Source of the DNA: an uncultured Ilumatobacter sp.
GTDB taxonomy: Bacteria; Actinomycetota; Acidimicrobiia; Acidimicrobiales; Ilumatobacteraceae
Reading direction: 5' to 3'
DNA length: 64,000 nucleotides
Assembly (NCBI GenBank): GCA_905480335.1
Contig: CAJQPY010000003.1
Coordinates: 97,457 to 161,456 of the forward strand
Position numbers and translations under genes: made by a program. The notes beneath the pieces are model-generated. The model was not told where the DNA came from and did not search any database. It saw only the letters and a program-made list of their open reading frames with translations. Below, in pieces: positions 627 to 32,507 of this stretch (positions are counted from its first letter, which is position 1; every line of letters starts with the position of its first letter).

Positions 627-1892
627 ATGACCGAAATCAACGACAACGACATCTCCCGAAAAGTTCTCAAGTGGTTCGACCACGCCTGGGACCCCGAGCT
701 GTCGCTCATCGAGTGGCGCAACCGATTGGTTGACTCGGGCTGGGCGGTCCCATCGTGGTCGTCCAACTGGTTCGGGCTCGACTTCCCGGCGTGGGTCGAT
801 CGAGTTGCGCATGCGACCATCCGCGAGGCCGGGGGGGTCACCGTCCCGCTCGGCGCCGGTTTCGGGCTCGCTGCGCCGACGATGTACGACCACGCCTCAG
901 ACGAGCTGAAGCAGAAGTACCTGCGTCGCACCCTCACCGGGGAGCTTGCGTGGTGTCAACTGTTTTCCGAGCCCGGCGCAGGCTCAGATCTCGCCGGACT
1001 GACAACCACCGCCGTGCGCGATGGCGACGAATGGATCGTCAACGGTCAAAAGGTCTGGAATACCAGCGCTGACCATGCGGACATGGGCATTCTCGTCGCC
1101 CGCACCAACTGGGGAGCGATCAAGCACGCCGGATTGTCCTTCTTCCTCATCGACATGCGCCAGGAGGCCGTCGGAGCTCGACCCATCGAGCAGATGAATT
1201 ACCGAAGTTCGTTCAACGAGGTATTCATGACCGACGCCCGAATACCGTTGGAGAACATCGTCGGGGCCGAGGGTGAGGGGTGGAAAGTCGCCCGCGGGAC
1301 TCTTGCTCACGAGCGTTCGTTCGCGACGCAACGCACTGTTCGTTTCGCACATGACGCACACGGCCGAGTTATCGACGAAGCAAAACTCGAGGCCGCCGAG
1401 TATCTAAAAACTTACGAGTGGTATCCGCAGCGAATGGGCCGAGTCGATCTCGTCGCCGAGCGCGCAGCGGCGTTGGAGGTCACCGACGATCGTTTGCTGC
1501 GCCAGGAAATGGCGGACATGTTCAGTCTCCAACTGGCGTCCGAGTGGACTGCTGGCCGGGCGAAGGCGGGCCGCGAGCTGGGTCGCCCGCCGGGCTCGGA
1601 GGGATCGATCGGCAAACTTGCGCTGTCCGAGGTGGCCCGTCGCGCTCACCGCGTCCACACACGCATCGCCGGGGCGCGAGGGCTTCTGAAGGAGTCCGAC
1701 GATCCGGTCGACAGCGTCGTCGCCGAGGTGCTCGTGTCGACGCCGGCCCAGTCGATTGCGGGCGGTACCGACGAGATTCAGCACAACATCATCGGCGAAA
1801 ACGTGCTCGGCCTCCCGCGGGAGCCCGCCGTCGACCGGGGCGAACCATTCCGCAACGTCGGTAGGGACGCTGGAAGGATAGACCCGCCATGA
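627..1892 (+). CDS. acyl-CoA dehydrogenase family protein
   Basis: ORF with CQLFSEPGAGSDLAGLTTTAVRDGDEWIVNGQKVWNTSA and GGTDEIQHNIIGENVLGLPRE motifs. Start placed at ATG 627 (MTEINDND). Confidence 0.93.
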   Translation: MTEINDNDISRKVLKWFDHAWDPELSLIEWRNRLVDSGWAVPSWSSNWFGLDFPAWVDRVAHATIREAGGVTVPLGAGFGLAAPTMYDHASDELKQKYLRRTLTGELAWCQLFSEPGAGSDLAGLTTTAVRDGDEWIVNGQKVWNTSADHADMGILVARTNWGAIKHAGLSFFLIDMRQEAVGARPIEQMNYRSSFNEVFMTDARIPLENIVGAEGEGWKVARGTLAHERSFATQRTVRFAHDAHGRVIDEAKLEAAEYLKTYEWYPQRMGRVDLVAERAAALEVTDDRLLRQEMADMFSLQLASEWTAGRAKAGRELGRPPGSEGSIGKLALSEVARRAHRVHTRIAGARGLLKESDDPVDSVVAEVLVSTPAQSIAGGTDEIQHNIIGENVLGLPREPAVDRGEPFRNVGRDAGRIDPP

Positions 1893-2665
1893 ATAGGGTT
1901 GTCTTCAAGAATGATGCAATCGTCGCCGTGGTCGGGGCGGACCACGTCGCAACGATCGAGCTGAGCAATCCGCCCAACAACTTCTTCTCGTTGGAGCAAA
2001 TCAGTGGTGTTGCCATTGCGCTCGAACTGCTCGATCAAGACGACGGGTGCCGCGCCGCCGTGCTGTGTGCGACAGGCAAGCACTTCTGCGCTGGGGCCGA
2101 CTTCTCCAAACGCGACCGTGCGTACACGACCGACGACTTGTACTCGGCGGCTGTCCGGATCTTCCGCACGAACACTCCGGTCGTCGCAGCGGTGCAAGGT
2201 GCTGCGATCGGAGGCGGGCTCGGGCTCGCACTGTCTGCCGACTTCCGCATCGCTGCGCCCGAGGCTCGCTTCAGCGCCAACTTCGCGCGACTGGGGTTCC
2301 ATCACGGATTCGGACTAAGCGTCACGCTCCCCCGCATCGTCGGTCAGCAGACGGCTGCCGAGCTGCTCTACACGGGGCGTCGAGTGAAGGGTGACGAGGC
2401 CGTCGAGCTCGGGCTTGCCGACCGTCGCGCCACGCTCGACTCGTTGCGCGCGACGGCCCACGCCTTCGCTTGCGAGATCGCCGCCTCGGCCCCACTCGCC
2501 GTCCGGTCCATTCGGTCGACACTCCGCGGTGACCTGGCCGACCGAGTCGAGGCGGCGACTGTGCACGAGGCGAGCGAGCAGGCGCGGCTCCAGCGGACCA
2601 CCGACTTTGCCGAAGGCAACGCTGCGATGGCTGAACGGCGCAGCCCGAACTTCACCGGTGACTGA
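1889..2665 (+). CDS. enoyl-CoA hydratase/isomerase family protein
   Basis: Crotonase motifs CATGKHFCAGADFSK and VQGAAIGGGLGLALSADFRIAAPEARF. ATGA overlap with the upstream gene. Confidence 0.93.
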   Translation: MNRVVFKNDAIVAVVGADHVATIELSNPPNNFFSLEQISGVAIALELLDQDDGCRAAVLCATGKHFCAGADFSKRDRAYTTDDLYSAAVRIFRTNTPVVAAVQGAAIGGGLGLALSADFRIAAPEARFSANFARLGFHHGFGLSVTLPRIVGQQTAAELLYTGRRVKGDEAVELGLADRRATLDSLRATAHAFACEIAASAPLAVRSIRSTLRGDLADRVEAATVHEASEQARLQRTTDFAEGNAAMAERRSPNFTGD

Positions 2666-2885
2666 CTGCCGACCTCAGCCCTCCCGAATCGACTTCCACA
2701 GCGCCCACCAAACCGGAATTTCGGGCGGATCCGACCCTCAAATCCAGGACCTTAGAAGGATCGTGACGGCCAGCATCACGGCTTACGCGAATTTCGAGAA
2801 GTGACGGGTGCTGGCATCAGAATCTGCCCGAGTTCAAGGCAGTGAATAAGTAATGTGGACAGCGGAGACGCGAGCAAGCGATGGG

Positions 2886-3524
2886 TCACGTGCGCAGGTC
2901 GCCCTGCCATCCGTCGAGGTGGACGACCTGGTCGTAGCCGACACGCTCAAGCGGACCGAATTTTCGGTCGGGCCATCCGAGCGGAATCATGCACCCAATG
3001 TGCACGTCCGTGGGGATGTCGAGCGTTTCGCGAATGACGGGCTCCGCGACGCCCTGGAACGTGGTGAACACGGTGCCGAGCCCTAGTGCGCGAGCGGCGA
3101 CGATCAAGTTCTGCGCAGCCGGGTAGATCGATGACCACACGAACGACTCGCGAGGAGCACCGTATGGATACACCGCCTTGCCGCACACAAAGATCAACGC
3201 AGGACACGTCGTGAGCGTCTCAATCAGGTGCGCAGTCCCGTCAAGCATCAGCCTGTGAGTTCGGTCCGGTCGGTCCATCGCAGCGACTCGGTCCCCCATT
3301 ACGGCCTGGACGGCGTCACCGATCTCCCGCTTCTTGTCCGGGTCGGTGACGACAATGAAGTCACGTCCTTGCGAGTTCCCGGGGCTCGGCGCCCAGGTTG
3401 CTGCGGTGATGACCCGTTCGATCAGTTGCTCATCGACCGGGTCAGGCTTCAGATAGCGCATCGCACGACACGTGCTCATTGCCTCAAAGACGTCCATGAC
3501 GCCCGGATCATCCATGGCGCTCAA
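2886..3524 (-). CDS. nitroreductase family protein
   Basis: MDVFEAMSTCRAMRYLKPDPVDEQLIERVITAATWAPSPGNSQGRDFIVV...GCMIPLGWPDRKFGPLER is typical of FMN nitroreductases. Confidence 0.88.
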   Translation of the reverse strand: MSAMDDPGVMDVFEAMSTCRAMRYLKPDPVDEQLIERVITAATWAPSPGNSQGRDFIVVTDPDKKREIGDAVQAVMGDRVAAMDRPDRTHRLMLDGTAHLIETLTTCPALIFVCGKAVYPYGAPRESFVWSSIYPAAQNLIVAARALGLGTVFTTFQGVAEPVIRETLDIPTDVHIGCMIPLGWPDRKFGPLERVGYDQVVHLDGWQGDLRT

Positions 3525-6491: not shown

Positions 6492-8072
6492 ATGACCAAC
6501 CTGTATTCGACGCTTACCAATCGGTTTGCATCTCGCCTCGACGCGCCTTTTCTGCGAGTACCTGGCCAGTCGCCGTTGACCTATCGCGATATCGATCACC
6601 GTGCTGCGTGCATGGCGGGGGCGCTGAGCCGACTCGGCGTTGCGACAGGTGATCGCGTCGTAGTCCAGATCGACAAGTCGACCGACAACGTCGCGCTGTA
6701 TCTCGCTTGCCTCCGGATGGGCGCCGTTTTCCTCCCGCTGAACACGGCATACACGTCGAGCGAAGTCGCCTACTTCGTTGATGATGCCTCGCCCACTGTC
6801 GTGGTCGCACGGCCTGGAACGCTCAACGATCTCCCAACGGTCGTCGTCGCATTGGGCACCGAGGGTGACGGCTCGTTCGGCGCAGCGACTGATGCCGCCG
6901 CGCCATTTGTTGGCATTGCGGAGCGCGACCCCGACGACCTCGCTGCGATGCTTTACACATCAGGTACGACGGGGCGCTCCAAAGGCGCCATGCTCACGCA
7001 TGCGAACCTCGAGTCGAACGCGTTGGCTCTCCACGACTTTTGGGCGTTCAGGGCTGACGATGTCCTGCTACACACACTGCCGATCTTCCACGTGCACGGG
7101 CTGTTCGTTGCGCTGCACTGCGCAATGCTGTCCGGTAACGAGGTCATTTTTCTCCCGAAGTTCGAGGTCGCCCAGGTCATTGAACAACTTCCGAACGTCA
7201 CGGTGATGATGGGTGTTCCCACTCAGTACACGCGTCTCCTCGCCCAGCCCCGACCCCAAACCCAAGTTCGAATTCAGGTGGATCCTGGCGCGAACCGTCA
7301 TGATTCGCAGGGTTTTGAGGACTTGCATCAGGATCCACCGGCATTTGATGCCGGTACGTGCTCGTCAATTCGACTGTTCACCTCCGGGTCGGCGCCGATG
7401 ACTGAGGCCGTCCATACCGAGTTCACTTCGCGTACCGGCCACCAGATCCTCGAGCGCTACGGAATGACCGAAGCCGGCATGATCACGTCAAACCCATACA
7501 CCGGGGACCGCGTGCCCGGCACCGTCGGGTTCGCTCTCCCCGGTGTCGAGTTGCGGGTCTGCGACGGCGACGGCCTCTCGGTTCCGACGGGCGCGACCGG
7601 TGTGGTCGAGATCCGCTCCCCCGGGCTTTTCGCTGGCTACTGGCAAATGCCGGAGAGAACAACTGCGGAGCACCGCTGTGACGGCTGGTTCATTACGGGT
7701 GATGTCGGATCCGTTGACGCCCAGGGTCGACTCACGCTCGAAGGCCGCTCGAGCGACATGATCATCAGCGGTGGTTACAACATCTATCCCAAGGAAGTCG
7801 AAATGGTTCTTGATGATCTTCCGGGTGTTCTGGAGACCGGCGTTATCGGTGTCCCGCATCCCGACTTAGGTGAGGCCGTTGTTGCGGTGGTCGTGCGTGA
7901 CGGCACCACCGACATTACTAACGACGAGCTTGCGGCATCGCTCGACGGAGTGCTCGCCCGCTTCAAGCACCCCAAGCGCTACATCTCGGCCGAGGCACTT
8001 CCCCGCAACGCAATGTCAAAGGTGCAAAAGGCGGCCCTGCGCACCGACTACTCGGACCTCTTCACCACCTGA
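6492..8072 (+). CDS. AMP-dependent acyl-CoA synthetase/ligase (malonyl-CoA synthetase-like)
   Basis: AMLYTSGTTGRSKGAMLTHANLESNA, GYGMT-type motif ERYGMTEAGMITSNPY, GWFITGDVG, SDMIISGGYNIYPKEVE. Contains an atypical ~30-aa segment (see 7251-7340). Confidence 0.93.
   Translation: MTNLYSTLTNRFASRLDAPFLRVPGQSPLTYRDIDHRAACMAGALSRLGVATGDRVVVQIDKSTDNVALYLACLRMGAVFLPLNTAYTSSEVAYFVDDASPTVVVARPGTLNDLPTVVVALGTEGDGSFGAATDAAAPFVGIAERDPDDLAAMLYTSGTTGRSKGAMLTHANLESNALALHDFWAFRADDVLLHTLPIFHVHGLFVALHCAMLSGNEVIFLPKFEVAQVIEQLPNVTVMMGVPTQYTRLLAQPRPQTQVRIQVDPGANRHDSQGFEDLHQDPPAFDAGTCSSIRLFTSGSAPMTEAVHTEFTSRTGHQILERYGMTEAGMITSNPYTGDRVPGTVGFALPGVELRVCDGDGLSVPTGATGVVEIRSPGLFAGYWQMPERTTAEHRCDGWFITGDVGSVDAQGRLTLEGRSSDMIISGGYNIYPKEVEMVLDDLPGVLETGVIGVPHPDLGEAVVAVVVRDGTTDITNDELAASLDGVLARFKHPKRYISAEALPRNAMSKVQKAALRTDYSDLFTT
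7251..7340. repeat. 90-bp in-frame insertion with 11-bp internal inverted repeats (candidate palindromic mini-element)
   Basis: GGTGGATCCTG (7277-7287) and CAGGATCCACC (7329-7339) are perfect inverted repeats. The encoded RPQTQVRIQVDPGANRHDSQGFEDLHQDPP interrupts VPTQYTRLLAQP|AFDAGTCSSIRLFTSGSAPM. Confidence 0.55.
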
Positions 8073-29272: not shown

Positions 29273-30358
29273 ATGAGCGTTTCGGCGATCGTCCTGGCAG
29301 CTGGTGAGGGGACGCGGATGCGGTCAAGCCGGCCTAAACCACTGCACATGATTTGCGGCCGGGCAATGGTCCTGCATGTGATCCACGCGCTCGAGAAGCT
29401 GGCCCCGGAGCGTGCGGCCATCGTGGTGGGCCACGGCGCCGAACAGGTCACGAAGAAGGTCCAATCGATGGCCCCCACGTGGGCCAATGTCGCCTTCGTC
29501 GAGCAACTCGAGCAGAACGGCACCGGTGACGCCGCCTCGATCGGCATGACCGCCTTCGACGGTGACGACTACGACGACGAGTCGACCATTCTCATCCTCC
29601 CCGGCGACACCCCACTACTCCAAGCCAACACGCTCGATGAACTCGTCGCCACCCATGTCGCCAACGGCAACGCCGCCACACTCCTCACCTCCATCATGGA
29701 CGACCCCACTGGGTACGGGCGCGTCGTGCGCAGTCGTGACGGCCAGGTCCAGCGGATCGTCGAGCAGCGCGACGCATCGCCCGAAGAACTCGACATGAGC
29801 GAAGTCTGCACATCGATATACGCATTCCGGCGGGATCTACTCGGACCGGCACTACGCACGCTCACGACCGACAACGCACAGGGCGAGTATTATCTGACGG
29901 ACGTCATCGCCGCTCTCGCAGAAATGGGGCACCGAGTCGGCTGCGTTCAGGCTCCTGCCCCCGAGACGCAGGGCGTGAACGACCGTTGGCAGCTCGCTCT
30001 CGCCGAGCGCGAGCTTCGAGCGCGCACGAACCGAAAGTGGCTCCTCAACGGTGTGACCATGCTCGATCCCCGCCAGACCTTCATCGACGTGAACGTCACA
30101 ATCGGCCGCGACGTCACGATTTATCCCGGCACCATCCTTCAAGGCGCGACCACAGTCGGTGATGGCTGCGAGATAGGCCCCGGTGCCCAGTTAGTCGATT
30201 GTGCCGTCGGCGCCGGCGCAAAGATCGTTCACGCCGTGGGTCATGACGCCGAGGTCGGCACCGATGCCGTCGTTGGCCCCTACGCCCACTTACCTGCAGG
30301 ATCGTCAGTCACTTCGGAAAGCGTCACCGGCGCGTTCTACACTTCGCCCGTCGACTGA
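29273..30358 (+). CDS. glmU: UDP-N-acetylglucosamine pyrophosphorylase, GlmU-like with truncated left-handed beta-helix domain
   Basis: AIVLAAGEGTRMRSSRPKPLHMICGRAMVLHVI; VEQLEQNGTGDAA; LPGDTPLLQ; LNGVTMLDPRQTFIDVNVTIGRDVTIYPGTILQGATTVGDGCEIGPGAQL. Ends after 361 aa. Confidence 0.9.
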   Translation: MSVSAIVLAAGEGTRMRSSRPKPLHMICGRAMVLHVIHALEKLAPERAAIVVGHGAEQVTKKVQSMAPTWANVAFVEQLEQNGTGDAASIGMTAFDGDDYDDESTILILPGDTPLLQANTLDELVATHVANGNAATLLTSIMDDPTGYGRVVRSRDGQVQRIVEQRDASPEELDMSEVCTSIYAFRRDLLGPALRTLTTDNAQGEYYLTDVIAALAEMGHRVGCVQAPAPETQGVNDRWQLALAERELRARTNRKWLLNGVTMLDPRQTFIDVNVTIGRDVTIYPGTILQGATTVGDGCEIGPGAQLVDCAVGAGAKIVHAVGHDAEVGTDAVVGPYAHLPAGSSVTSESVTGAFYTSPVD

Positions 30359-30404
30359 CGTCGAACGACGCCAGTCGATTCGGGCTCGAGAGGATCACGC
30401 CATC

Positions 30405-31391
30405 ATGGAAAAGGTCACCACCAAGCGACTCGCGCTCTACACCGGGCGCACACATCCCGCGCTCGCACAGGAGGTGGCCACCCACCTGAACATCGAGTTG
30501 GGCAATGCCAACCTGGTCGAGTTTGCCAACGGCGAGGTCCGCTGCAGTTTCAACGAGTCCGTACGCGGCACCGACGTGTTCGTTATGCAGACGCATTTCG
30601 GCATCGACGGGCGGTCCGTGAACGACTCGATCATGGAACACTTGATTATGATCGACGCCGCCTCACGCGCCTCCGCCAAGCGCATCACTGCAGTCTGTCC
30701 GTTCTACGGCTACGCCCGCCAGGACCGCAAAGCCGCAGGGCGTGAGCCGATCACCGCACGTCTTATCGCCGATATGTTCAAAGAGGCAGGGGCAAAGCGG
30801 ATGATCTCGATCGACCTGCACTCCGGTCAGATCCAAGGCTTCTTCGATGGACCGGTCGATCACCTCACCGCTATGCCGGTGCTCGAACAGTACGTGCGTG
30901 ACAACGCCGAATCCCCGGTGATCGTTTCGCCCGACGCCGGACGGATCAAGGTCGCCGAGCGGATGGCACAGCATCTCGGCCCCGACGCTGATCTCGCCTT
31001 CATTTACAAGCGCCGTCCGAAGGGCACGACCAACGTGGCCGAGGCCGCCGAGGTCATGGGCGACGTCGCCGGTCGCACCTGTGTCCTAACCGACGACATG
31101 ATCGACACCGGCGGCACGATCGTGGCGGCCGCTGAACTTTTACGGAAGCGTGGCGCGAAAGAAGTCTGGGCAATGGCGACGCATGGCCTCCTGTCGGGAC
31201 CTGCTGTCGATCGCATGAAAAACGCACCAATTGAACGGCTCGTGTTAACCAATTCGTTGCCGCTCCCGGCGGAGAAACAACTCGCAAACGTCGAGATTCT
31301 CTCGGTTGCGCCGTTGATCGCTGAGGCACTCGGCGCCGTCTTCGACGACACAAGCGTGAGCGATATTTTCGACGGCGAGAACCTCGCCTGA
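30405..31391 (+). CDS. prs: ribose-phosphate pyrophosphokinase
   Basis: LALYTGRTHPALAQEVATHLNIELGNANLVEFANGEVRCSFNESVRGTDVFVMQ; RMISIDLHSGQIQGFFDGPVDHLTA; CVLTDDMIDTGGTIVAAAELL. Confidence 0.97.
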   Translation: MEKVTTKRLALYTGRTHPALAQEVATHLNIELGNANLVEFANGEVRCSFNESVRGTDVFVMQTHFGIDGRSVNDSIMEHLIMIDAASRASAKRITAVCPFYGYARQDRKAAGREPITARLIADMFKEAGAKRMISIDLHSGQIQGFFDGPVDHLTAMPVLEQYVRDNAESPVIVSPDAGRIKVAERMAQHLGPDADLAFIYKRRPKGTTNVAEAAEVMGDVAGRTCVLTDDMIDTGGTIVAAAELLRKRGAKEVWAMATHGLLSGPAVDRMKNAPIERLVLTNSLPLPAEKQLANVEILSVAPLIAEALGAVFDDTSVSDIFDGENLA

Positions 31392-31437: not shown

Positions 31438-31555
31438 CCAGGCGCCCATGGGCCTATCCGGCCTCCATTCGAACCCGCTGCGTCCGAAAGTTCGCGTGGA
31501 TGCGGACGCCCGGAGGCCTGGTGCGTCCGAATTCGACCGGCACGATCCGTCCGAA
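31438..31555 (+). other. structured intergenic region: nested hairpin plus three CGTCCGAA repeats upstream of rplY
   Basis: GGCCTCC(31460-31466)/GGAGGCC(31512-31518) encloses GCGTCCG(31480-31486)/CGGACGC(31503-31509). CCAGGC(31438-31443) could alternatively pair with GCCTGG(31516-31521). CGTCCGAA at 31481, 31524 and 31548. Confidence 0.5.
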
Positions 31556-31774
31556 TTTTCAGGTGTGTTGTCACGCCAGGGTAAAAACCAATCAAATCAC
31601 GACGCACAGCGACGCTATGCGCCCGAACTTGCAGGAGTGAGACCTGAGGTAGGTGCGACGGTTGAGGTCTGGGGCGGTGCCGATAGCTTTACGTGCTGCT
31701 GTATTTCGACCGGCGGCACTTGGCATTGATCTGATTCGCCAGGCACCCGTCGCACACGTTTGGACACCAACATC

Positions 31775-32449
31775 ATGACCGAGACCATTCTCAACGCAAC
31801 CACCGGCCGGGCCAAGGGAAGCTCCTCCTCACGGCGCCTTCGGAGCGAAGGTCGTATTCCCGCCGTTGTATATGGCCAGGGCATGGAGCCACTGAGCATT
31901 TCCGTCGACCGTCGCGAGTTGCGCATCGCCGTGTCCGGGAGCGCTGGGCTCAACACAATTCTCGACCTCACGATCAATGGCGAGATGTACCCGTCGATCA
32001 TCAAAGATGCCCAGCGCCACCCGGTGCGCCTGAACATTGAGCACCTCGACTTCATCCAAGTCGACCTCAACGCTCAGATCATCGTCAACGTGCCGATCAA
32101 CTTGACCGGCGAAGCTAAGGAAGTCAACGACAACAACGGCTTGATCGATCAGATCATGACTGAAGTCGAGGTCTCCACCACGCCGCGAAACATTCCCGAC
32201 GAGATCATCTTTGACGTGTCGGAAATGGACATGGACTCAACGATCACCGTCGCCGACCTTGCGATTCCCGCCGGCGTCACCGCCACATCCGACCCGGAGT
32301 CGGCCGTCATCACCGTATCGATCATGCGCACCCCCGTGCTCGACGAGGAAGCCGCCTTGGCCGAAGCCGCCGCCGCTGAGGGCGAGGGTGAGGGCGAGGG
32401 CGAGGGCGACGGTGGCGACGCCGCTGCCGCAGACGACTCAGGCGAGTGA
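31775..32449 (+). CDS. rplY: 50S ribosomal protein L25 / general stress protein Ctc
   Basis: SRRLRSEGRIPAVVYGQGMEPLSISVDRRELR...LNIEHLDFIQVDLNAQIIVNVPINLTGEA; acidic GE-repeat C-terminus. Confidence 0.94.
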   Translation: MTETILNATTGRAKGSSSSRRLRSEGRIPAVVYGQGMEPLSISVDRRELRIAVSGSAGLNTILDLTINGEMYPSIIKDAQRHPVRLNIEHLDFIQVDLNAQIIVNVPINLTGEAKEVNDNNGLIDQIMTEVEVSTTPRNIPDEIIFDVSEMDMDSTITVADLAIPAGVTATSDPESAVITVSIMRTPVLDEEAALAEAAAAEGEGEGEGEGDGGDAAAADDSGE

Positions 32450-32466
32450 ATCAAGCCAACGAATCC

Positions 32467-32507
32467 GCACGATCCGGCGCGTTGAGCGCGCCGGATCGTG
32501 CCGTTTT
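32467..32507 (+). terminator. rho-independent terminator downstream of rplY
   Basis: GCACGATCCGGCGC(32467-32480)/GCGCCGGATCGTGC(32488-32501) perfect 14-bp stem followed by CGTTTT. Confidence 0.88.

Follow-up and report, generated by a model that had tools for sequence, protein, structure and literature searches.

An in-frame insert in an Ilumatobacter MatB-like gene is very probably a copy of a REP-like palindromic repeat

RESULTS

An insert in a MatB-like synthetase gene

The window, that is, the whole 64-kb stretch of Ilumatobacter DNA analyzed here, carries an intact gene for an acyl-CoA synthetase (Table 1) with the domains AMP-binding and AMP-binding_C; an acyl-CoA dehydrogenase gene on the opposite strand adjoins it. 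The closest solved relative of its product by structural match is RpMatB of Rhodopseudomonas palustris (4fuq; 45% identity), which has the same enzyme family and fold but lacks a 30-residue loop found in the window protein.

The initial annotation had proposed that this loop is a 90-bp in-frame insertion at 7251-7340. Alignment with relatives bears out the insertion and its length, with exactly 90 extra bases, but not the coordinates; the most parsimonious boundary is 7254-7343, and even this can shift by about one codon because the flanks are not conserved. All 15 aligned relatives show the gap: two same-genus orthologues (G007, 77% identical, and G004, 75% identical) and 13 more distant proteins from the family and the order. 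The extra residues sit between YTRLLAQPR and FDAGTC, and the spacing from YTR to SGSAP is 57 residues here versus 27 in the relatives that match these motifs. Had orthologues shared the same 30 residues, a lineage-specific loop would have been indicated; both same-genus orthologues lack them.

Table 1. Positions of the synthetase gene, its insert and the repeat copies within the window
Feature	Position	Strand	Remarks
Compound intergenic copy of the repeat family	2712..2835	.	Between convergent ORFs 1889-2665 (+) and 2886-3524 (-)
Gene that hosts the insert: AMP-forming acyl-CoA synthetase, MatB-like (malonyl-CoA synthetase type)	6492..8072	+	526 aa, open through the insert
In-frame insert, 90 bp	7254..7343	+	Encodes PQTQVRIQVDPGANRHDSQGFEDLHQDPPA; missing from 15/15 aligned relatives
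Complete but degenerate palindrome of the repeat family	7270..7316	.	12/22 stem pairs left; model R1 scores 18.6 bits
Left arm of perfect 11-bp inverted repeat	7277..7287	+	GGTGGATCCTG
Second right half-arm of palindrome	7325..7346	.	30 bp from the first; last three bases are a host Phe codon
Right arm of perfect 11-bp inverted repeat	7329..7339	+	CAGGATCCACC
Degenerate intergenic copy of the repeat family	31484..31632	.	Between ORFs 30201-31391 (+) and 31760-32449 (+)

The gene was also said to have survived the insertion, and it has: the insert is a multiple of three long and free of stops, the frame is intact and the host gene is under normal purifying selection. Measured against the two orthologues without the insert, its dN/dS comes to 0.13 and 0.18, compared with 0.14 between those orthologues, all with synonymous sites near saturation. 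At 177 outgroup-conserved sites we count one unique change in the window lineage versus three and four in the others. AlphaFold2 (16 sequences) keeps the fold at a mean pLDDT of 85 but gives residues 257-280, between helix 243-250 and strand 294-297, a pLDDT below 50, with the insert at about 40. The insert is thus predicted to be a disordered loop within a confident fold, as far as the suggested structure prediction goes in supporting a surface loop; surface exposure itself would follow from the disorder and the position.

Membership in a dispersed palindrome family

The perfect 11-bp inverted repeat described in the initial annotation is present as stated. By itself it is only mildly unusual and not compelling: about 3% of random sequences of gene length contain a comparable inverted repeat, and the 64-kb window has eight such repeats where 1.7 are expected. 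The insert is significant because it is homologous to other repeat copies, not because of this inverted repeat.

A BLAST search of its own genome with the insert, of the kind that had been recommended for finding other copies, gave one weak second match, on contig C37 (E 0.01); this and a second match on C8 exposed a 47-bp near-palindrome, and a search with the 47-bp pattern then found four clear intergenic copies in the same genome and two in the congener G002. A covariance model trained on those six copies, with the window copy left out, scores the insert at 18.6 bits on the forward strand and 30.2 bits (E 8.9e-6) on the reverse strand; it also finds many more loci in the window genome (G000), G002 and a further congener, G009. 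Since a covariance model rewards any hairpin, we then used sequence-only models, also built without the insert. The PWM gives 34.8 bits, versus 16.4 for the best random site in 3 Mb, and model R2 gives an E value of 1.1e-4 across the whole genome, with 23.6 bits at the full unit. Detection by three models that had never seen the insert supports the idea of a mobile palindromic element, and the proviso that no second copy might exist has fallen away, with dispersed copies found in the genome and in relatives. We discounted one further count: GGTGGATCC occurs 32 times against once in a reversed control, which might suggest a large family, but almost all matches are ordinary coding sequence, and the reversed control contains CTAG, so the ratio is misleading.

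The insert is laid out as a complete palindrome with a half-arm at a distance of 30 bp. This half-arm has the top half-site score of the whole 64-kb window (R2 14.4 bits at 7321-7347), and its last three bases are a Phe codon of the host. With the full unit's left arm it forms 17/22 pairs; the inverted repeat first noticed in the DNA was this outer one because the inner hairpin has decayed further, to 12/22. The palindrome does not cover the first 16 bp at the left end of the insert (7254-7269), and the family consensus does not account for them. We detect no target-site duplication (no repeat at a 90-bp offset across the insert); such a duplication could be eroded.

Anatomy and distribution of the family

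The family consensus in the window genome is AAATTCCGGCGGATCGTGACGGCTGCCGTCACGATCCGCCGGAATTT. Its core, GGATCGTGACG / CGTCACGATCC, is common to the species, while the outer arms differ: TTCCGGC in the window genome, TTTCGTG or TTTCGAG in G002, ATGTGGA in G009 and CTGGGGC in Desertimonas flava. Over 54 copies, both partners vary in 18 of the 22 stem pairs, and 163 cells are compensated versus 71 in shuffles. This covariation needed the 54 copies to emerge, nothing being seen in the six alone, and it is partly shared descent within subfamilies; it is evidence that symmetry was maintained but does not give the number of restorations.

Compound copies occur: in G002 two palindromes often lie exactly 72 bp apart, and D. 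flava has a half-arm exactly 28 bp away in 7/7 copies checked, beside the 30 bp of the insert (orientation means little for near-perfect palindromes). At one G009 locus (L181, about position 2130 of contig C260) a third palindrome with an internal deletion (CAATGTGGAGGGACTGGCGCACGCACTCCTCCACATTCG) lies between two full ones. D. flava loci such as L201 and L208 have a long conserved flank 3' of the palindrome (CGAAACATCCCCACGAGCCGCGCCGGCGTCGAGACCCCG), which suggests a longer composite element in that species.

The window genome has at least about 20 loci, one congener more than 20, another at least about eight, and D. flava 36 near-perfect copies; the counts are lower bounds, with 150 candidates scored in each genome. 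Among 222 genomes from the family, four contain the core with up to two mismatches: the window genome, G002, G009 and G017, the last being D. flava SYSU D60003 (identical sequence around the copies), which is placed in the Ilumatobacteraceae. Mean Watson-Crick pairing, out of 22, is 15.4 in the window genome, 16.9 in G002, 17.2 in G009 and 19.3 in D. flava, the last figure biased upward because that set was chosen by exact core match. From these averages the family looks old and decaying in the window genome and fresh in D. flava. No Rfam family matches the repeat, and in the open-licence literature we found no paper on such repeats in Ilumatobacter or Desertimonas; the family and the actinobacterial in-frame example appear to be new.

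Gene context of the copies

Most copies are extragenic, chiefly near the 3' ends of genes; by approximate gene calls, 26 are convergent, 23 co-directional and four divergent in context. The additional loci in the window genome are intergenic. Five further copies appeared to be in genes, but in four cases (L150, L159, L165, L182) the copy precedes the conserved domains, close to the 5' end of the called gene, with the true start probably downstream of it, and we do not count these as in-gene copies; the fifth (L157) is in a frame with no domain match. The matB-like copy is thus the only one of about 60 examined for which interruption of a conserved protein is demonstrated; with nearly all copies extragenic, it is an exception.

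Of the reading frames in family units, 48/72 are open, and the frame used by the matB-like insert is open in 12/12 units tested, where it encodes a recurrent (V/A)DxDxxRxDPPEF-like peptide. The 30-residue loop appears to be tolerated by the enzyme, and we take the in-gene copy to be a tolerated one in decay, not an adaptation.

DISCUSSION

All aligned relatives have an empty site, and the insert shares homology with the palindrome family as well as its compound layout. We consider it very probable that these 90 bp represent an old copy of a non-autonomous, REP-like repeat of the Ilumatobacteraceae that entered the matB-like gene after the split from the sequenced congeners. The repeat would have moved by a transposition-like process, as its dispersion and the one empty site suggest, and the palindrome would most plausibly have been handled as a single-strand hairpin by an enzyme. 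Three circumstances together may account for the survival of the gene: the length of the insert is a multiple of three, about two-thirds of the frames of the unit are open, and the landing site is apparently a linker of invariant length that joins the helix to the strand preceding SGSAP and in which a disordered loop would do no evident harm.

The family works like a REP or a MITE; membership in either is not established, and it is set apart from the GTAG REPs and from the Rickettsia palindromic elements (RPEs). Like GTAG-type REPs with their RAYTs, BIMEs and REPINs, it consists of dispersed, mainly extragenic short palindromes near gene 3' ends, often paired, with species-specific subfamilies and occasional in-frame copies in ORFs (PMC3733652). 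REPs are 20-40 nt long, however, whereas this is a 47-bp palindrome with a fixed central core; its hairpin end has no GTAG tag, the consensus ending in AAATTC / GAATTT or species variants. MITEs such as QMITE2, ERIC and CIR are likewise short, non-coding, non-autonomous and mostly intergenic, often 3' of ORFs (PMC10969869), but the target-site duplication of MITEs was not found at the matB-like insert. We call the family REP-like, and not an RPE, because it is without terminal GTAG or CGTC, a RAYT link or target-site duplication. REPs inserted in frame have been described before in other bacteria. What this locus adds, backed by a comparison with empty sites, is an actinobacterial example in which a palindromic repeat has been built into an enzyme still under selection, and also a repeat family with a constant core, covarying arms and no known mobilizing enzyme.

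RAYT-like genes are present in most congeners and in D. flava. Among the RAYT-like loci examined in the genus and in D. flava, none links a transposase to the GGATCGTGACG palindrome or is flanked by it; where palindromes flank these Y1_Tnp genes they are of another family, the GGTGTCAGACACC or GGTGCCTGGCACC type, as seen beside L134, L139, L143, L146, L209 and L210, and these are apparently the genes' own REPs. The only trace of a Y1 transposase in the window genome (L092, G000:C43:26372-26539) lies near a contig end; it is a weak 137-aa open frame with THFHVVV, below the Pfam cut-off, and a relic. With a different palindrome at the RAYT-like genes and only a relic here, a RAYT serving resident REPs is not demonstrably the mobilizer. 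Action in trans or a lost enzyme is possible, as has been proposed for CGTC repeats (PMC3733652). A more specific version, that an untagged family of mobile palindromes in a few Ilumatobacteraceae is moved by a non-RAYT enzyme, with the arms and the GGATCGTGACG core reflecting recognition by a protein, and can extend proteins in frame, is one we hold tentatively, as the less probable form of the idea. D. flava, with dozens of nearly perfect copies, would allow a test of how untagged palindromes spread.

A possible objection is that the palindrome is a bidirectional terminator or a protein-binding site that spread by recombination or gene conversion rather than transposition, with the in-gene copy a stray. 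The position of copies near 3' ends, in the convergent and co-directional contexts counted above, would fit this, as would a core conserved between genera while the arms covary. Gene conversion, however, requires a pre-existing site, and the matB-like site was empty; moreover, compound layouts that differ between species point to whole units having been amplified. We regard this explanation as unlikely.

Less credible still is the resemblance to RPEs drawn in the initial annotation, if taken to mean an actinobacterial counterpart in which protein-coding palindromes enter genes regularly and in frame, possibly under selection, as a mode of protein evolution. The likeness is real at this one locus: like an RPE (reviewed in PMC10969869), the repeat lies in frame in a housekeeping-type gene, adds about 30 aa and has no dedicated transposase known, and the insert, a predicted disordered loop in a host gene kept under selection, is compatible with a folded protein; the frame that is open in all tested copies, with its recurrent peptide, points the same way. 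RPE insertions in genes are frequent, however, with nearly half of 44 in genes in R. conorii (PMC10969869), whereas here there is one clear in-gene copy among about 60 examined, nearly all the others being extragenic or upstream of a conserved domain. RPE-4/RPE-6-type repeats also carry a terminal CGTC tag (PMC3733652), while the CGTC of this family is beside the loop, inside the 22-bp stem. Nor does an in-frame palindrome alone make an RPE, because REP-like repeats encoding about 20-30 aa occur in ORFs outside Rickettsia, in O. terrae, Thauera and others as well as in R. conorii (PMC3733652). The resemblance therefore does not extend to kind, and we give this reading very little weight.

The least probable explanation, that the 30 residues arose by ordinary indels or local duplication unconnected with any mobile repeat, could appeal to the missing target-site duplication, the single in-gene copy and the weak significance of the 11-bp inverted repeat, but the searches made with the insert left out already refute it, provided that their matches are not due to chance, and the half-arm layout agrees with the family.

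Returning to the REP-like family, any role of its extragenic copies is probably that of hairpins at 3' ends, serving either as terminators or as stabilizers of mRNA, as in other REPs. A separate terminator-like hairpin of the window (32462-32506, GCACGATCCGG...CCGGATCGTGC), just 3' of the ORF ending at 32449, carries the CACGATCC half-core of the family.
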